From: a bacterium
GTDB lineage: Bacteria; JAJVIF01
Length of the DNA stretch: 64,000 nt
Direction of reading: 5' to 3'
NCBI GenBank assembly: GCA_022072165.1
Contig: JAJVIF010000001.1
Location: 1,240,001 to 1,304,000 of the forward strand
Each line of letters starts with the position of its first letter. The first letter of the stretch is position 1. Made by a program: the position numbers and the translations under genes. Below the pieces are notes generated by a model that had not been told where the DNA came from, did no database searches, and saw nothing but the letters and a program-made list of their open reading frames with translations. Shown piece after piece: positions 47,830 to 60,265 of the stretch.

Positions 47830-48123
47830 GTGCCACGCAATGACTACGAAAGTGCCCTGGGCATGATTGAAACCAAAGGGCTGGTCGGCGCCATTGAAGC
47901 GGCTGACGCTATGGTGAAGGCGGCCCGGGTCACGCTGACCGGCAAAGAAACCATCGGCGGGGGGTATGTGACCGTCTTTGTCCGCGGCGAAGTCGGCGCG
48001 GTCCGGGCAGCCACCGATGCCGGAGCTGCGGCGGCGCAGCGGGTGGGCGAACTGGTGTCCGTCCATGTGATCCCGCGTCCGCACGACGAAGTGGAAATGC
48101 TCCTCCCCCAGCCCAAGGGCTAG
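47830..48123 (+). CDS. Microcompartment shell protein, BMC-H (PduA/EutM type)
   Basis: 97 residues from the GTG at 47830 (AGGAG at 47814-47818). A single BMC domain nearly the length of Pdu[75 protein letters not shown]. It should form hexamers that tile shell facets. The pore loop is TIGGG (KIGSG in PduA), so the Ser lining the PduA pore is Gly here, giving a wider or less polar pore. First gene of the BMC locus. Confidence 0.95.
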
Positions 48124-48141
48124 GCGACGAAGGGACTCCTC

Positions 48142-48714
48142 ATGGCCACAGGACAGGGATCCCAGCCCATGGCGGCGCTGGGCCTCATTGAGACTATCGG
48201 TGCCGTCGGTGGCATCGAAGCGGCGGATGCTGCGCTGAAAGCAGCCAGGGTCCGGCTGATTGGCAAGGAATACGCCGATGCCGGACTCCACCTGATCAAG
48301 CTGGTCGGCGAAGTAGCGGCGGTCCGTGCGGCGGTGGATGCTGGCGCGGCGGCGGCGCAGCGGGTCGGACAGCTCGCCGGGACCCATGTGATTCCCCGTC
48401 CCGACATCCAACTCGAAGCCTGGATGTTTGCTCCTACCGGCAGCCCCAAAGCGATGGCCTTTACTCGTGCTCCCGAACTTGGCCAGCGTGCCACCGGGAG
48501 TGGCGATGATGATGGGAGCACGGATGAAGCGCCGGCAGCCACTCCTGGCGTGCTCCCAGCAGACTTTGCCGAGCTCCCGGTCCGGGAACTCCGGGGCGTC
48601 GTCCGGACCTTGCCGGATTTCCCGCTCCAGGGACGGCAGGTCTCGACCGCCACCCGCGAACAGTTACTTGATGCCATCCGCGAATGGCAGGCACGTCCGG
48701 GCGCTGGGGGGTAA
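48142..48714 (+). CDS. BMC-H shell protein with extra C-terminal SAP/Rho-N-like domain
   Basis: 190 residues. Residues ~10-95 are a BMC domain ([55 protein letters not shown]) with an unusual pore loop YADAG. A linker rich in Gly, Asp and Ser follows. Residues ~139-183 form a small helical unit (FAELPVRELRGVVRTLPDFP, STATREQLLDAIREWQA) that resembles SAP/Rho N-terminal helix-extended-helix domains. PduK and EutK are also BMC proteins with C-terminal extras; EutK's is a nucleic-acid-binding type. The extension could bind cargo or nucleic acid. It starts 18 bases after the first shell gene. Confidence 0.88.
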   Translation: MATGQGSQPMAALGLIETIGAVGGIEAADAALKAARVRLIGKEYADAGLHLIKLVGEVAAVRAAVDAGAAAAQRVGQLAGTHVIPRPDIQLEAWMFAPTGSPKAMAFTRAPELGQRATGSGDDDGSTDEAPAATPGVLPADFAELPVRELRGVVRTLPDFPLQGRQVSTATREQLLDAIREWQARPGAGG

Positions 48715-48717
48715 GCC

Positions 48718-50256
48718 ATGCCCCTGGACCGCGATCTCGCCTCGATGCAGGAAGTCCGCGATCTGGTCGGACGGGCGGTGGCCGCCCAGCAGCAGATGAT
48801 GGGGCTGGATCAGGCCGCGATTGACCGCATTGTCGAGGCGATGGCAGAAGCGGGATACCGGGCTTCCGCGCAGTTGGGACAGCTCGCCTGGGAAGAGACC
48901 ACCTACGGCAATCCGGGCGACAAGCGGGTCAAGAATGAGTTTGGATCCCGGTCCATCGGCGAAGCGATCCGGGGGATGCGGACCATCGGGTATCTCGGGG
49001 AGCAACCAGCCACCCGGATCCGGGAATTCGCCTGGCCCTATGGGGTCATCGGGGCCATCACTCCGACGACCAATCCCACCAGCACAATCATGTACAAGGC
49101 GATCATCGCCGTGAAGTCGGGCAACGCGCTGGTGGCGTCGCCGCATCCCCATGCGGTCCGCTCCAGTTGCGCCGCCATGGATGTCGTGGGCCGGGCCGCG
49201 GAAGCGGCGGGCCTCCCCAGTGGTGCACTCGGCTGTATCTCGCAGCCGACCATGGCGGGAACCCAGGAGTTGATGCGTCATCCGCAGGTCGATCTGATCC
49301 TGGCGACCGGCGGCAAGGAGATGGTGAAGGCTGCCTATTCCTCAGGAAAGCCCGCTTATGGAGTCGGGCCGGGGAATGTCCCGGTCTATGTCGACCGGTC
49401 AGCGGATGTCGCCACCGCCGCCCAAAGAATTGTTCAGGGGAAAACCTTCGACTGGGGCACCCTCTGTTCGTCCGAGCAGTGCATCGTCGCGGATCGTCCC
49501 ATCGCCGATGCCCTGCGGCGGGCACTGGAAGAAACGGGAGGCTACTTCCTCTCGCCGGAGCAAAAACGGGCGGTGGAGCAGGTCCTCATTGAGCCGAGCG
49601 GCCGGGTGAATGTGAAGCTGATCGGTCATCCTCCACAGGCCATCGCCGAGGCGGCAGGCTTTCGGGTGGAAAGCCAGGTCCGGGCGCTGATTGCGCCGAT
49701 CGATGAAGTAGGGCGTCGCGAGCCCCTGTCGCTGGAAAAGCTGTCGCCGGTCCTGGCCTTTACGGTCCGGGAGGGCTGGGAAGCCGGCTGTCATACCTGC
49801 ATCGACCTGCTGCATGTGGGAGGCGAGGGGCATACCCTGGGTCTCTACTGCCAGGATGAGCAAATCATCATGGAGTTCGGACTCAAAAAGCCGGTGTTCC
49901 GTATTTGTGTGAATACCCCCACGTCGATCGGTGCGGTGGGCGTCACGACCGGCCTCTTCCCGGCGATGACCCTCGGGTGTGGTGCCCCGGGGGGCAACAT
50001 CACGTCGGACAACATCGGCCCGCAGCATCTCTACAACAAGAAGCGTCTGGCGTTTCATTTGCGCGATGTCGCGCCAGCCGCCGCGCCGTCACCAACGGCG
50101 ATGGCTCCAGGACGCCCTGGTCCAGGTGGGGGTTTCTCAGCGGTCACCGCCTGTTCGCCGCTGCATCCCACCGGATGCGACACCTCCAGCTTCCACGGGC
50201 TGACTGAGCGGGACATCGAAGCGATCCTCGCGCAGATGTCCGGCGGACGGCGCTAG
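48718..50256 (+). CDS. CoA-acylating aldehyde dehydrogenase (PduP/EutE-like) with C-terminal encapsulation-type helix
   Basis: 512 residues, four bases after the preceding stop. ALDH-superfamily features: PYGVIGAITPTTNPTSTIMY, LATGGKEMVKAAYSSGKPAY, GVGPGNVPVYVD and catalytic Cys250 in FDWGTLCSSEQ, the pattern of CoA-dependent enzymes (PduP, EutE, AdhE N-half). It converts an aldehyde, NAD+ and CoA to acyl-CoA. After ~455 comes a Pro/Gly/Ala linker with two Cys, then LTERDIEAILAQMSGGRR, a short amphipathic helix like the peptides that target enzymes into BMC shells. PduP carries its peptide at the N-terminus; here it is C-terminal. Confidence 0.93.
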   Translation: MPLDRDLASMQEVRDLVGRAVAAQQQMMGLDQAAIDRIVEAMAEAGYRASAQLGQLAWEETTYGNPGDKRVKNEFGSRSIGEAIRGMRTIGYLGEQPATRIREFAWPYGVIGAITPTTNPTSTIMYKAIIAVKSGNALVASPHPHAVRSSCAAMDVVGRAAEAAGLPSGALGCISQPTMAGTQELMRHPQVDLILATGGKEMVKAAYSSGKPAYGVGPGNVPVYVDRSADVATAAQRIVQGKTFDWGTLCSSEQCIVADRPIADALRRALEETGGYFLSPEQKRAVEQVLIEPSGRVNVKLIGHPPQAIAEAAGFRVESQVRALIAPIDEVGRREPLSLEKLSPVLAFTVREGWEAGCHTCIDLLHVGGEGHTLGLYCQDEQIIMEFGLKKPVFRICVNTPTSIGAVGVTTGLFPAMTLGCGAPGGNITSDNIGPQHLYNKKRLAFHLRDVAPAAAPSPTAMAPGRPGPGGGFSAVTACSPLHPTGCDTSSFHGLTERDIEAILAQMSGGRR

Positions 50257-50269
50257 GGCACCGGGCTCT

Positions 50270-50926
50270 ATGGACCCGCTGCCCGGTATGCTGGAACCGA
50301 AAGGCTCCTTCGATGCCTGGATGATGGTGAATGGAGCCTACTTAGGGGGTGGGTTCCTCGGACTGATCGCCCTCGTCATTCTCTCTATCGCGATTCTGAG
50401 CTTCCTTGAAATCCGACTCTCCCGGCGGGTGGATAGCAGGATGGAGTTCTATGCCCAGACGGTCGGGGAAGTGTTGAAATCAAAACTGATTGAAGGGCGC
50501 AGTCGCCACGGCACCCGGTACTACGTCCCCGTCATTGAGTATCAGTATCAGGTGGACGGCAAAACCTACAAGAGTCACCGCATTTACCCTGCGGAGTTCG
50601 GCGAGAGTGTCGATAAAGCCTGGGGCGAGCAGCTGGTCGCGAATTTTCCAGTCGGCCTACATTTCATGGTCTACTTCGACCCGGAGCGACCACGAGACTG
50701 CGTGGTGATCCGCGACCCCTCCATGGTGAAGCGGTCTGTCACCGGCCACCTGGTCATGGGGATCCTGATGGTGATTACCGCTGTCTGGATCATCTGGGCG
50801 GTCTTCACCAAAATCCTGCCCGAGGCGGGGAAGCCGCTGCCGCAGGACTGGTATGGCGAGAATGTGCAGGTGGAATCCCCCTGGACCATGGAACCTGTGC
50901 CGCAAATCTTGCAGCCATCGCCCTGA
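50270..50926 (+). CDS. DUF3592 membrane protein inside the BMC locus
   Basis: 218 residues. Membrane helices at ~25-47 (GGFLGLIALVILSIAILSFL) and ~160-182 (GHLVMGILMVITAVWIIWAV) flank an extracytoplasmic DUF3592-type domain (TVGEVLKSKLIEGRSRHGTR, PVIEYQYQVDGKTYKSHRIY, VYFDPERPRDCVVI). The family has no known function and no known microcompartment link. It lies 13 bases after the aldehyde dehydrogenase and before the third shell gene on the same strand, so it is probably co-transcribed. Weak SD. Confidence 0.8.
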   Translation: MDPLPGMLEPKGSFDAWMMVNGAYLGGGFLGLIALVILSIAILSFLEIRLSRRVDSRMEFYAQTVGEVLKSKLIEGRSRHGTRYYVPVIEYQYQVDGKTYKSHRIYPAEFGESVDKAWGEQLVANFPVGLHFMVYFDPERPRDCVVIRDPSMVKRSVTGHLVMGILMVITAVWIIWAVFTKILPEAGKPLPQDWYGENVQVESPWTMEPVPQILQPSP

Positions 50927-50987
50927 ACAGGCATCATTCCCCCCAGACGCTGCGAGATCGCAGTCTGCAGTCTGAAAGGACCCCGCC

Positions 50988-51296
50988 ATGACCGCTCCGC
51001 ATGAGACCGCCCTCGGACTGGTGGAAACCAAAGGACTCATCGCCGCCATCGAGGCGGCTGATGCGATGGTGAAGGCTGCGCGGGTGACCCTGGTCGGCAA
51101 AGAGAAAATTGGTGCGGGGTTTGTCACGGTCATGGTGCGCGGCGATGTCGGGGCGGTCCGGGCTGCCACAGATGCCGGGGCTGCCGCTGCGGATCGCGTA
51201 GGGCAGCTGGTGTCGGTGCATGTGATTCCGCGTCCGCATGGCGATGTTGAAGAGATCCTGCCGAATCACGGCCAGCCGCCTGCCCCAGCTAAATAG
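50988..51296 (+). CDS. Microcompartment shell protein, BMC-H (PduA/EutM type, second copy)
   Basis: 102 residues with AAAGGA before the ATG. Closely similar to 47830-48123: [55 protein letters not shown]. The pore loop is KIGAG (Ala where PduA has Ser), so the two PduA-like paralogues differ mainly at the pore (GGG versus GAG). The C-terminal tail is Pro/Ala-rich. It probably arose by local duplication. Confidence 0.95.
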
Positions 51297-51298
51297 GG

Positions 51299-52153
51299 AT
51301 GCATGTAGCGACCCTTGGGTCTCCCTGGACAGGGTCAGCACCGCGCCGCAGGTGGCATGTATTCGCACTACTCCTAACCTGCCTCATCACTGGGCCAGTC
51401 AGCGCTGATCCCCTCCCCTTTCCCACCGCCGCAGAACTCGGTCGCACCATTGATCAGTTCAATGGTCCCTGCGGTCATGCCGATGGCGATGGTGTCCTCT
51501 CCGGCACACTCCTCCTGCTGGCCCCCTTGGGGCATCACTTCACTTTCACGGCCACCATCGTCGAGTGCGACTCTATGCAGCGTCGCCCACTGACTGAACG
51601 GGAAGCGCTGTTTGAATGGCTGGGTGTGTATGACCAGCGTCGGGATGAAGCCTGGACCTGGCTCGCCGACGCGCTGCAATCGCAACCGCAACAGGTGGGG
51701 TCCACCCTGCGTCGTGGGGCACTGATCCTGTTGCTCCAGGAATCCCCGGAACGGGTCGCGCAAATGCGCCCACTGCTGCGTCAGCAGGCTGATCCCGCCA
51801 CGATTCGGCTGGCCCTGACCATGGAGGGGGGGCAGTATCTGGACCCCTTCGCCCGAGGACTCGGTCGGGACCTGGATGCCACCGGCACGCTCTATCGCGC
51901 AGCATTTGCTGACCTTGGGATCCTTCCGCTGTGCGACAACTGCCCCTCAGAGCCGCGTGGCACTGATGTGGAACAAGCCTGGGCGTTTATGTTCCTTTCA
52001 CTCCACCCGCGTCAGCAACCCCGGGAGCTGCCTGCTCGCCTGGCAGAGAGCTGGTACCGCCCCTATTTGCAGCAATACACCGACGGCTCACTGCTGGAGC
52101 GATCGCTGGCGGCCGTGGTACTCTGGCGGCTGCATCCGACGGAGTCACGCTAA
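51299..52153 (+). CDS. Secreted helical protein of unknown function within the BMC locus
   Basis: 284 residues; the ATG lies two bases after the previous stop, and the next gene follows three bases after its own stop, so it is firmly embedded in the operon. Signal peptide (WHVFALLLTCLITGPVSA|DP). The mature part is helical, with repeats that might be HEAT-like (STLRRGALILLLQESPERVA, DPATIRLALTMEGGQYLDPF, LLERSLAAVVLWRLHPTES), plus Cys at CGHAD, VECD and CDNCP. A protein exported through Sec cannot be shell cargo, so its role is puzzling. No family recognised. Confidence 0.75.
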   Translation: MHVATLGSPWTGSAPRRRWHVFALLLTCLITGPVSADPLPFPTAAELGRTIDQFNGPCGHADGDGVLSGTLLLLAPLGHHFTFTATIVECDSMQRRPLTEREALFEWLGVYDQRRDEAWTWLADALQSQPQQVGSTLRRGALILLLQESPERVAQMRPLLRQQADPATIRLALTMEGGQYLDPFARGLGRDLDATGTLYRAAFADLGILPLCDNCPSEPRGTDVEQAWAFMFLSLHPRQQPRELPARLAESWYRPYLQQYTDGSLLERSLAAVVLWRLHPTESR

Positions 52154-52155
52154 CT

Positions 52156-52959
52156 ATGCCCACCTCGCCCTGCGCCTGTGTCGCCCCGCTTCCGGGCCTG
52201 CCGCCGATCCCAATTCGGCGGATACGGGCCTATGCCCAGCTTTCCCGTGAAGCGATGGACGCCCTCTTTGGTCGAGGGAGCACGCTGACAGTGCTCCGCG
52301 ATTTGGGTGAGCGTCCGTTCTTTGTCGCGAATCAGCAGATTCGGCTCTGCGGGATCGATGGGAGCACACAGGCGATCTCGGTTGTCGGGCCGATTGCGGC
52401 TATGACAGAGATCGTGCTGAGTCCGCTGGTGGCTGCTGCTGCTCGACTCGCGCCGCCCGTGCGGGTGCCCGGCGATCAGGACGAAACCGATGGGGGCTGC
52501 CTGCGGGGACCGTCGGGGGATTACCACCTGGATGACGGCATCCTGGTGCTCCGGCCACATCTCGTGCTCCCAGCGCAGCTTGCCGCAGCGACTGGGATGG
52601 CTCAGGGTGATGAAGTCGCGGTCTGGCTGCCAGGAAGCGCGCCAATCGTGCTCCCGCAGGTTCCGTGCATGCTCCGTGATGTCCGGGATCCGGAGATGCG
52701 CGTGGATGCTGATCTCGCGAACCGGGTGCAAACGCCAGATGGGGCGACCGCCACCGTGCTCCCGCGCCTCAGCGAACCGGTTGCGCCTGGGATCGGGGGG
52801 GTGCATGCCCCGCTGCCGGTCATCACGGAGGCCGATATCGTCAGGGCACACCTCGCTGGCAAGACCCTTCGGGCGGATCAGGGGACCATCGTGACCCCTG
52901 CAGCACAGGAAGCGGACCGGCGGTACCATGTGCTCGTGCCCCCACCAGCGGGGCGGTAA
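52156..52959 (+). CDS. PduL-fold phosphotransacylase homologue lacking the zinc ligands
   Basis: 267 residues. The backbone matches PduL: SREAMDALFGRGSTLTVLRD (family LSRxDLExLFGPGYELTxxKD), ISVVGPIAAMTEIVLS, APPVRVPGD and MAQGDEVAV. The zinc ligands do not. The NRHVHLS motif is RAYAQLS (24-30), the AKRHIHMT motif is VLRPHLVL (131-138), the Glu of QVEIS is Val, and the late His is Arg182 (EMRVDADLAN). PduL normally turns acyl-CoA into acyl-phosphate; this copy probably cannot. Residues 222-257 (VITEADIVRAHLAGKTL, GTIVTPAAQEADR) resemble a segment of EutT, an addition to the usual PduL. No N-terminal encapsulation helix is evident. Confidence 0.82.
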   Translation: MPTSPCACVAPLPGLPPIPIRRIRAYAQLSREAMDALFGRGSTLTVLRDLGERPFFVANQQIRLCGIDGSTQAISVVGPIAAMTEIVLSPLVAAAARLAPPVRVPGDQDETDGGCLRGPSGDYHLDDGILVLRPHLVLPAQLAAATGMAQGDEVAVWLPGSAPIVLPQVPCMLRDVRDPEMRVDADLANRVQTPDGATATVLPRLSEPVAPGIGGVHAPLPVITEADIVRAHLAGKTLRADQGTIVTPAAQEADRRYHVLVPPPAGR

Positions 52960-52984
52960 TCAGGGATCACAGGGAGGCAGTCGC

Positions 52985-53317
52985 ATGTTTCTGGGACGCG
53001 TGGTGGGGTCAGTCTGGGCCACCAAGAAGACCGAAAGCCTTGAGGGCCTCCGGCTGCTGATCGTGCAACCATTTGATTTGCGGCTCGACCCCAACACCGC
53101 AGTAGTCGTCGCTGCCGACACTATCGGCGCAGGCGTGGATGAAGTCGTCATCGTCGCCTATGGACGGGCGGCACGGCTGGCGACCGGCAATGTCAATGCC
53201 GCGTTGGAAGCGGCGGTCGTCGGGATTGTCGATGCGGTGGACCTCCAGCGCCTGGAAGGTGCTCCAGAACTCTCTGCGGCAGCGCAGTCCTTCCTCGCTC
53301 CTCGCTCCCGGAGCTGA
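52985..53317 (+). CDS. BMC vertex protein (EutN/CcmL, BMC-P)
   Basis: 110 residues with GGGAGG upstream. Typical EutN/CcmL: MFLGRVVGSVWATKKTESLEG at the start, LRLLIVQPFD, VVVAADTIGAGVDEVVIVAYGRAAR, and AVVGIVDAVDL near the end. These pentamers close the vertices of the icosahedral shell. It is the only vertex gene here and the last of the operon; two hairpins follow. Confidence 0.95.
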   Translation: MFLGRVVGSVWATKKTESLEGLRLLIVQPFDLRLDPNTAVVVAADTIGAGVDEVVIVAYGRAARLATGNVNAALEAAVVGIVDAVDLQRLEGAPELSAAAQSFLAPRSRS

Positions 53318-53380: not shown

Positions 53381-53407
53381 AAAGAGGACCGCGAGGTCCT
53401 TTTTTTA
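53381..53407 (+). terminator. Terminator of the BMC operon
   Basis: Stem AGGACC/GGTCCT with loop GCGA, then TTTTTT; the preceding AAAG can extend the pairing. Confidence 0.85.
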
Positions 53408-53548: not shown

Positions 53549-54196
53549 ATGCCGTCACAAGGCCTGTCCAAAAGCGACCGGGGTGATCTCTTGGTGCTGG
53601 GTTTGCTGCAAAGCAGGCCGCGTCATGGTTATGAGTTAAAGCGTCTGCTGGGACAGTCCCTGGCGGGCATCGGACGCCCGGTGGCATCCACGCTGTACTA
53701 CACCCTGAAACGGCTGCACCGGGCGGGGAGCATCACTACTGAGAGTGCCCTCGGACCCACCGGGCAGTTTGCGCCCCGGAGTATCTGGGAAATGACCGCC
53801 ACCGGTCGGGGATCGTTGGAGACCCTGTGTCATAAAGCGCTAGACGATCTGACCTGCCCCGCGCCGCTGACCTTCGGGGTCCTGCTGGCTGAAGAACGCT
53901 CTGCAGCGGAACTGCGCCGGTTGCTGCAACAGCGACATGCCCGTCTGCTCCGCGAAACGCAGCTGCTCGTCAGAGATTCCAACAACCAGGCTGACCGGTG
54001 CCTGATTTCGATGTATCAGCTCTGTCAGCAGCAACTCGGGCTCGAACTGGGATGGATCGATGGCTTGCTGCAGCACCCGGCGATGGGGACACCGGCAGAC
54101 CATGGGTCGGAATCTGCACCAGCTGACACGAACTGGCTGGAGGCCTTCGCCCCGCCTTCGCTCGCATGTGCTCCCACCATGTCCGAGGGCCACTAA
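53549..54196 (+). CDS. PadR-family transcriptional regulator
   Basis: 215 residues. The N-terminal winged helix has the PadR pattern: DRGDLLVLGLLQSRPRHGYE, LKRLLGQSL, VASTLYYTLKRLHRAGSITT, WEMTATGRGSLE. The C-terminal ~110 residues are helical and would dimerise (RRLLQQRHARLLRETQLLV). PadR proteins repress neighbouring operons and respond to small ligands such as phenolic acids. Its place just after the BMC terminator makes the BMC operon a candidate target. The start at 53549 is forced by an in-frame stop at 53525; no SD at a normal distance. Confidence 0.85.
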   Translation: MPSQGLSKSDRGDLLVLGLLQSRPRHGYELKRLLGQSLAGIGRPVASTLYYTLKRLHRAGSITTESALGPTGQFAPRSIWEMTATGRGSLETLCHKALDDLTCPAPLTFGVLLAEERSAAELRRLLQQRHARLLRETQLLVRDSNNQADRCLISMYQLCQQQLGLELGWIDGLLQHPAMGTPADHGSESAPADTNWLEAFAPPSLACAPTMSEGH

Positions 54197-58280: not shown

Positions 58281-59261
58281 ATGTCCGCCGACCTCGCCCG
58301 CTTCGCCATTCCGGTCACGACCCCGGCCGATCCGGGGGCCTGGCGGGATGATCCGTTTCTCTGGGGCATCGAAGCACTTGCGCTGACCAACGGGACCGGG
58401 GTCCCGTCTGATTCTTTGCTGCGCCTCCTGGGAGGCGGAGCCTTTGTGTTCGCGGCTTGCATTAGCTGTTGTCCCTACTGGTGGCTTGGGGCAGGGAAGG
58501 CACGACGCCGTTATGCCCTGGGGACCGCTTTGGGATGGAACATCACGCACATCACCGCCGATGGGACACAAGCTGCCTACGAAGCGCTCCTGAAGGGTCC
58601 CCTGACCCAGGAACTGACCTTTGGGCGCGCCCTGCTGGCCTACGGGGGCTGGCCCGGCGAAGCGCAGTATCACTGGGGTCTGGTGACCGCCACCGCCGAG
58701 GGGCATTGTCCTGCGGGACTCACCCCCTTCACCGGCGAGGAACTCGTCGTGATGCCCAGCTGGCCCTATCGCCTGGTGCTGGCGGACCCGGTGGGGCAGC
58801 CGGTGCCGCCCCTCGCCGCGACACTGGAGCAGGCACTGAGCGATGCGTCGCGGCACTGGGACGACGTAGTGGGGCAGGAGGCTGGCGATGCCGCCCCGGA
58901 ATCGCAGTGGCATTCTGGTGCGGCGGCGCTGCAGATCCTGCAGAAGCGGCTGGCCAGGCAGGACCCGTTCTGTGATCAGTGCGCAGACTCCTCGTGCCTG
59001 TCGGCGCTGATTCAGGGGTGGGCCGCGAACCTGAAGCAGGGAAGCGCATGTCTTATAGCGGCAGATGCGGTGCTGCAGGCACCAGAACTGACGAACCTCG
59101 CCAGCGACTGGCGCACGATGGGGGAAGACCTGCAGTCCGCAGCAACAGTTCCAGCCGATCCAGGCGCACTGGCACGAGTGGTGGATCGCTGGAGTGAGAT
59201 GTACACCGAGTGCAGAGCCCGTCTGGACACCTGGCTTCAGACACGGGCAGGAGGTGAATGA
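58281..59261 (+). CDS. Hypothetical protein (faint BtrH/C39-like resemblance)
   Basis: 326 residues, start ATG 58281. The N-terminal ~190 residues contain GVPSDSLLRLLGGGAFVFAA, ADGTQAAYEALLKGPLTQEL, FGRALLAYGGW and YHWGLVTATAEG. This order loosely recalls cysteine-protease-fold proteins of the BtrH/C39 type, but I cannot identify a catalytic triad. The Cys-rich spot ACISCCPYW is notable. The C-terminal ~110 residues are helical with CDQCADSSC. Cytoplasmic. It overlaps the aldo/keto reductase start (ATGATG), so the two are probably coupled. Confidence 0.65.
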   Translation: MSADLARFAIPVTTPADPGAWRDDPFLWGIEALALTNGTGVPSDSLLRLLGGGAFVFAACISCCPYWWLGAGKARRRYALGTALGWNITHITADGTQAAYEALLKGPLTQELTFGRALLAYGGWPGEAQYHWGLVTATAEGHCPAGLTPFTGEELVVMPSWPYRLVLADPVGQPVPPLAATLEQALSDASRHWDDVVGQEAGDAAPESQWHSGAAALQILQKRLARQDPFCDQCADSSCLSALIQGWAANLKQGSACLIAADAVLQAPELTNLASDWRTMGEDLQSAATVPADPGALARVVDRWSEMYTECRARLDTWLQTRAGGE

Positions 59262-60265
59262 TGCGATACGTGCAGTTGGGACGCACTGGACTCTCCACCA
59301 GTGAAATCGGATTCGGTGCCTGGGCCATCGGCGGCAATCAGTACGGCAACTCCTATGGCCACACCGATGATGTCACGAGCAAGGCCGCTGTTCATGCGGC
59401 CCTGGAGTGCGGCATCAACTTCTTTGATACCGCCGATGTGTATGGCTACGGCCATTCCGAGGAGGTCCTGGGAGCAGCCCTCAAGGGAGCCGACTTTGGA
59501 CTCCCCCCCATCATCGCGACCAAAGTGGGCGGCAATTTTTATCAGGGCCAGACGCGGATGGACTTCAGTCCGGACTATCTCCGCTTCGCAGTCGACCAGT
59601 CGTTGCGCCGGTTGCAGATCGACCGGATCGATCTCTATCAGTTGCATAACCCCAGCGCTGAGATCATCGCGGCGGGCGCGGTCATCGACACCCTCGAGGA
59701 GCTGCAGGCTGCCGGCAAGATCGGACACATTGGCGTGTCGGTGTTCACGCCGGACGAGGCGATGGCCTGTCTTGGGGATGACCGGGTCGCATCGATTCAG
59801 CTGGTCTACAACCTGCTGCGACGGGAGATGGAGTCGCAGGTCCTCGAAACCGCGCAATTGCGCCATGTGGCCATCATTGCCCGGGAGCCGCTGGCCAACG
59901 GGTTCCTGGCGGGACGCCGGTCGCCGCAGGACGAGTTTGAGCCTGGCGACATCCGGTACTCGATGCCGGCGGGGTACAAATCGCAGCTGGCGGGAGCGGC
60001 CGCCTATGTCCGGGAGGTTCTGGAAGCCATCGATGGGCCACAGGGAGTCCGGACGCTGGCGCAGGTTGCCCTGCAGTTCGTGATTCGCCATCCTGCGGTG
60101 AGCGTGGTGATCCCGGGGGCAAAGAAGGCCAGCCAGGTGATCGAAAATGCCCATGTCAGCGACCTTGGTCCGCTGGAAGGGGCCTTCATCACCTCCCTCT
60201 TCGGTCCGGACTACCAGCAGGCGGACCCAGCCCAAAAGCCCTATCAGGAGCTCCCCATCGCATGA
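59261..60265 (+). CDS. Aldo/keto reductase
   Basis: 334 residues. Of the two consecutive ATGs (59258, 59261) the second is better placed after GGAGGT. TIM-barrel AKR: RTGLSTSEIGFGAWAIGG, NFFDTADVYGYGHSEEVLG, IIATKVGG and DRIDLYQLHNP give the tetrad Asp56, Tyr61, Lys88, His129. The NADP(H)-binding end is VVIPGAKKASQVIENAHVSD. It reduces aldehydes or ketones, substrate unknown. It overlaps the Nudix gene by four bases (ATGA), forming an operon with 58281 and 60262. Confidence 0.93.
   Translation: MRYVQLGRTGLSTSEIGFGAWAIGGNQYGNSYGHTDDVTSKAAVHAALECGINFFDTADVYGYGHSEEVLGAALKGADFGLPPIIATKVGGNFYQGQTRMDFSPDYLRFAVDQSLRRLQIDRIDLYQLHNPSAEIIAAGAVIDTLEELQAAGKIGHIGVSVFTPDEAMACLGDDRVASIQLVYNLLRREMESQVLETAQLRHVAIIAREPLANGFLAGRRSPQDEFEPGDIRYSMPAGYKSQLAGAAAYVREVLEAIDGPQGVRTLAQVALQFVIRHPAVSVVIPGAKKASQVIENAHVSDLGPLEGAFITSLFGPDYQQADPAQKPYQELPIA

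Follow-up and report, generated by a model that had tools for sequence, protein, structure and literature searches.

A compact single-locus microcompartment encoding a PduL homologue predicted to have lost phosphotransacylase activity

We analyzed a 64,000-nucleotide window of DNA from an uncultured bacterium (positions 1,240,001 to 1,304,000 of contig JAJVIF010000001.1, assembly GCA_022072165.1) that carries a bacterial microcompartment (BMC) locus at window positions 47830-53317. The locus comprises eight intact, tightly packed genes on the + strand, whose products are three hexameric shell proteins (BMC-H), a coenzyme A (CoA)-acylating aldehyde dehydrogenase (AldDh), a DUF3592 membrane protein, a predicted secreted protein, a homologue of the phosphotransacylase PduL and a pentameric shell protein (BMC-P). 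Of these products AldDh alone can be recognized as a working enzyme. The PduL homologue lacks nearly all of the residues that bind zinc and phosphate in a solved PduL, and the predicted loss of phosphotransacylase (PTAC) chemistry is well supported; literature searches, confined to open-access papers, turned up no account of PduL pseudoenzymes. By published definition the locus is a metabolosome with incomplete core (MIC), and we give an even chance to the reading that it forms a complete single-locus MIC metabolosome for acetaldehyde and acetyl-CoA in which PduL is now a non-catalytic component. An earlier description drawn from the letters of this DNA (hereafter the sequence-only reading) had listed a PduL-fold protein here; it is a real PTAC homologue, and its missing catalytic residues had gone unnoticed.

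Active site of the PduL homologue

In R. palustris PduL, two zinc ions are bound via His48, His50, Glu109 and His157, His159, His204, and Arg103 sits on the phosphate; structural work in 2016 described the metal-coordinating residues as absolutely conserved (PMC4784909). The window protein aligns to this structure (5CUO, 2.7e-20) and carries Tyr48, Gln50, Ala103, Val109, His157, Val159 and Arg204 at these positions (YQAVHVR vs HHREHHH). Thus 1/7 of the zinc and phosphate residues is kept, short of the residue set of a functional PduL; retained residues include H157 and N211.

To place this protein among other PduLs we drew on a survey of 385 genomes, 66 of which had a PTAC domain, with one short fragment (G314) left unscored. 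Every scorable residue was kept in 62/62 ordinary PduLs (60 from survey genomes, one from a Cetobacterium plasmid and one from a Clostridia locus), one of them a partial sequence scored 6/6. Degenerate PduLs were identified in six genomes from three families: the window (1/7), G385 (1/7, from a search other than the survey), G054, G327 and G196 (2/7 each) and G257 (4/7). Their PTAC domains scored 87-129 bits compared with 174-282 bits for full-length ordinary PduLs. All six degenerate proteins had a type I AldDh in the same locus and were the sole PTAC domain found in their respective genomes, and in one family (f54) the degenerate form was present in 4/4 genomes, with one PTAC domain each. 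The replacement residues differed by lineage, being YQAVHVR in the window, RF-type in f54 and QRVEHHH in G257. The G257 (L090) and f54 (L091-L093, L095) proteins share R97P, and with the exception of G196 also Q107R, by convergence or common origin.

Relatives of the locus and apparent retention of the degenerate protein

The AldDh scored 532 bits against the EutE-type model TIGR02518, for which the curated cut-off is 620. It aligns with 5j78 and 3k9d, keeps the GTxCxSEQ cysteine motif of solved acylating enzymes and ends in a peptide, GLTERDIEAILAQMSG, that fits the encapsulation peptide of its clade and is conserved across that clade. An AldDh tree placed the window enzyme in a group of 15 rows with 90/90 support, separate from EUT2-like enzymes and with no well-supported closer partner. 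Within this group PduL was intact beside the AldDh in G323, G120 and G107 and intact in the same locus in G123; degenerate forms occurred in the window, in G257 and in f54, whereas no PduL was found in G056, G330 and G199. The last three genomes encode type I AldDhs with a C-terminal extension (L072, L074 and L075), with no PF06130 detected and no shell gene found nearby. Two further AldDh-like matches contain in-frame stops (G069:C5:64342-65679, two TGA; G240:C80:92691-93722, one TAA), representing disrupted genes or sequencing errors.

The closest layouts were found in G120 and G257, two genomes of one family from another phylum, where the genes for a BMC-H, a second BMC-H whose tail is homologous, AldDh and PduL follow one another as in the window. 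The G120 locus also has a BMC-P, and the G257 contig breaks off where PduL ends. No homologue of the DUF3592 or secreted protein was found at the related loci. With counterparts in these two genomes outside its own phylum, the core order (BMC-H, tailed BMC-H, AldDh, PduL, BMC-P) represents a small layout that recurs, with no visible decay. The G257 and G120 enzymes were sisters in the AldDh tree (100/99) while the G120 PduL is intact; the PduL active site would therefore have been lost at least twice, and probably three times. The AldDh tree argues against a single clade of all degenerate PduLs, and the PduL tree carries little weight on this point because of its long branches (2.9 changes per column on the window end branch).

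The degenerate protein nevertheless appears to be kept. In the window PduL, 2/13 active-site and CoA residues were retained compared with 13/19 other conserved residues (Fisher p=0.005). The same contrast gave p values from 4e-5 to 2e-3 in the four f54 proteins and was not significant in G257. Among the four f54 genomes the ratio of nonsynonymous to synonymous change (dN/dS) was 0.17-0.41 for the degenerate PduL, near the 0.17-0.33 of AldDh, these being rough Nei-Gojobori values with some near saturation. The f54 degenerate PduL is under purifying selection. Degenerate and intact PduLs of this group also have in common a C-terminal motif, ITExDVRxAxxxGxxIxVxxGxIxTPAARDL, which recurs, scoring lower, in the N-terminal part of non-PduL open reading frames (ORFs) in EUT-type loci (L119, ORF from 16433; L079; L077). 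This distribution suggests that the motif is a general BMC module, and points to a module that may serve something other than phosphate transfer.

Gene layout and the rest of the genome

The ORFs, their Pfam and NCBIfam families and a readable hairpin with a T run (Table 1) confirmed the eight same-strand genes, followed by a terminator and a PadR regulator, of the sequence-only reading. The BMC-H1 start (GTG 47830) is preceded by AAAGGAG and is in frame; ATG 47840 is out of frame, and a frameshifted start was ruled out. The end of the BMC-H2 C-terminal extension is conserved in L067 and L068, and weak SAP/HeH-like matches were obtained for the two homologous tails only. BMC-H3 scored 135.7 bits against the EutM model (cut-off 133). 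The best solved relative of BMC-P was 4i7a (1.4e-19), and its start is most likely ATG 52985 rather than 52928. No Pfam or NCBIfam family matched the secreted protein. An absence of a terminator 3' of BMC-P was rejected on the clear hairpin; the scanner's own terminator and promoter sites were at chance level, and this hairpin is absent from its list. A link of the PadR regulator to the operon is possible. The flanking genes (metallophosphoesterase, FG-GAP protein, glycosyltransferase, sigma factor, aldo/keto reductase) showed no BMC link; the aldo/keto reductase gene (window 59258-60265) lies ~5 kb downstream of PadR with no sign of a connection.

Table 1. Features of the microcompartment locus and its 3' flank (window positions)
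Feature	Position	Strand	Details
BMC-H1	47830..48123	+	97 aa, GTG start; basal-type hexamer (KAA...PRPH); PF00936 4.1e-29
BMC-H2	48142..48714	+	190 aa, ~90-aa C-terminal extension; PF00936 3.4e-23
AldDh, CoA-acylating, EutE/type I	48718..50256	+	C-terminal encapsulation peptide GLTERDIEAILAQMSG; TIGR02518, PF00171
DUF3592 membrane protein	50270..50926	+	PF12158 1.9e-14
BMC-H3, EutM-like basal hexamer	50988..51296	+	102 aa; PF00936 3.6e-29
Predicted secreted protein	51299..52153	+	284 aa; Sec-type signal peptide judged by eye
Degenerate PduL (putative pseudo-phosphotransacylase)	52156..52959	+	267 aa; PF06130 (PTAC) 2.5e-24
BMC-P (EutN/CcmL) pentamer	52985..53317	+	110 aa from ATG 52985; PF03319 2.4e-27
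Intrinsic terminator-like hairpin and T run	53385..53406	+	AGGACC-GCGA-GGTCCT, read from sequence
PadR-family regulator 3' of terminator	53549..54196	+	PF03551 5.2e-12

A domain search of the whole genome (3.26 Mb in 4 contigs, 99.1% complete) revealed three PF00936 domains in total and a single PF03319 domain, none of them outside this locus. There is thus no trimeric shell protein (BMC-T) and no second or satellite BMC locus, bearing out the minimal shell of the sequence-only reading; a second cluster elsewhere, for which it had asked the genome to be checked, was rejected by the same search. The other three species genomes covered for the host phylum (four in total) had no BMC domain. As that reading had also said, the locus contains no signature enzyme and no alcohol dehydrogenase. 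A search of the genome for Pta (PF01515) gave no match, with the control positive in 10/14 genomes. Provisional searches with one query sequence each gave no match for acetate kinase (AckA), EutB, FucA, FucO-type iron alcohol dehydrogenase, PflB, PduC or a YbiW-type glycyl radical enzyme.

Single-sequence queries identified DeoC, threonine aldolase (LtaE) and weak zinc alcohol dehydrogenases elsewhere in the genome, together with an AMP-forming acetyl-CoA synthetase (Acs, 61% identity). DeoC and LtaE are possible aldehyde producers, in keeping with the earlier suggestion of feeding enzymes encoded elsewhere. As to the lyase or aldolase with an encapsulation peptide that the sequence-only reading had asked to be looked for, the clade peptide model gave no match in DeoC, LtaE or a zinc alcohol dehydrogenase. 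DeoC (C1:33343-34155) adjoins its own non-BMC aldehyde dehydrogenase genes: at L114:6856-10300 (C1, ~31-34 kb) a full-length aldehyde dehydrogenase gene comes next, and then a shorter one of 289 aa that resembles only the N-terminal part of such an enzyme. The layout is similar to a DeoC/ALDH16-like arrangement.

Known systems, alternative explanations and proposed function

The MIC assignment follows from a locus that encodes the core AldDh, no alcohol dehydrogenase and a PTAC homologue without catalytic residues, predicted to be inactive. MIC loci likewise combine AldDh and shell proteins, with core enzymes missing and no signature enzyme (Axen 2014, PMC4207490; Sutter 2021, PMC8217296); the window locus is unlike them in having a PduL homologue present but stripped of its catalytic residues. 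The assignment is by definition only, and the layout may already fall within a numbered published locus type, many AldDh loci without a signature enzyme having been catalogued in 2021 (PMC8217296). EUT2 loci (e.g. the Cetobacterium somerae plasmid, L119) share the type I AldDh class with a C-terminal encapsulation peptide, an EutM-like BMC-H, PduL and EutN, whereas the window locus has no EutABC, EutL, EutH or alcohol dehydrogenase, its AldDh lies in a separate group, and an E. coli EutB query found no match in the locus or genome-wide. The f54 AldDh-PduL pairs, located away from their own shell genes, resemble FRAG loci (Sutter 2021); in contrast, the window shell and core genes all lie in one operon-like run. 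ARO loci (Sutter 2021) have a similarly simple shell of one BMC-P and two BMC-H, but the window AldDh is of a different class and there are no aromatic enzymes. In SPU and HO loci a DeoC-type aldolase is proposed to be encapsulated with AldDh. The DeoC of this genome is encoded outside the locus, and the clade peptide model gave no match in it. The proposal of a new minimal type thus stood in part: the published MIC definition fits and very simple shells are known from ARO, and the unusual feature is the dead PduL.

Several points weigh against a working metabolosome with a non-catalytic PduL. Expression, structure and assembly of the organelle are predictions here, and most enzyme absences in the genome were called from queries with one E. 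coli or Listeria protein each, which divergent enzymes could escape. An AlphaFold model of the window PduL from a two-row alignment had a pLDDT of 30, leaving retention of the fold to rest on sequence similarity, and selection on PduL was measured in family f54, outside the window's own lineage. The lost PduL active site, the lack of a detected signature enzyme, Pta or acetate kinase, and the three BMC-free species genomes of the phylum would also fit decay, with the locus a vestige of an ancestral EUT/SPU-like metabolosome whose signature enzyme, alcohol dehydrogenase, BMC-T and PTAC activity have all gone. We consider decay, which the sequence-only reading had entertained, unlikely: all ORFs are intact, the AldDh retains its cysteine motif and clade-conserved peptide, gene order and the BMC-H2 tail are common to two genomes of another phylum, and the degenerate PduL of f54 is under purifying selection.

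The altered active-site residues could in principle reflect a new activity instead of none, the homologue having gained a catalytic or ligand-binding function (e.g. on a different acyl-CoA, or in sensing CoA) and not turned into a structural pseudoenzyme. Consistent with this, the gene is still open and alignable despite its great divergence, H157 and N211 are kept, and the R97P and Q107R changes recur as described above. The catalytic-site replacements vary among lineages, however, a pattern more in line with relaxed constraint than with a single new active site, and we regard a new function as improbable. To an ordinary acetaldehyde metabolosome fed by deoxyribose phosphate, with DeoC supplying acetaldehyde, we assign an equally low probability. 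DeoC is encoded in the genome and the HO/SPU proposal provides a published precedent (PMC8217296), but the surroundings of DeoC and its lack of a match to the clade peptide model speak against this route, which also leaves the dead PduL unexplained. The N-terminal extension of DeoC, which resembles that of long deoxyribose-phosphate aldolase forms, weighs on the same side.

For the reading that we prefer, a metabolosome with a non-catalytic PduL, we infer assembly, substrate, the role of the dead PduL and CoA exchange as follows. The EutE-type AldDh would be the one main enzymatic cargo, targeted by its C-terminal peptide, and would use NAD to form acetyl-CoA from CoA and acetaldehyde or some similar short aldehyde. 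The aldehyde may come from threonine aldolase, DeoC or an alcohol dehydrogenase encoded elsewhere. The PduL homologue, its PTAC activity presumably gone, may be retained for assembly or as a scaffold, probably via its conserved C-terminal module. In Salmonella an N-terminal encapsulation peptide brings PduL into the enzyme core (PMC9132943), and by analogy a role in core assembly is conceivable. Because the homologue would be without PTAC activity, no acetyl phosphate would be made from acetyl-CoA in the compartment, and CoA would be exchanged with the cytosol or freed by another enzyme. Axen and co-workers proposed that cofactor recycling is perhaps not absolutely required in MIC loci (PMC4207490).

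For the wider EutE-type metabolosome clade we tentatively suggest, as a possibility that we hold with some doubt, that PduL repeatedly (at least twice, probably three times) turned into a conserved pseudoenzyme with a part in building the organelle, and that these compartments work without a phosphotransacylase, swapping acetyl-CoA and CoA with the cytosol and having no private CoA pool. Central to the metabolosome paradigm is a phosphotransacylase that recycles a private pool of CoA. Loci that keep a PduL gene without its active site make it directly testable whether CoA recycling inside the shell is required.

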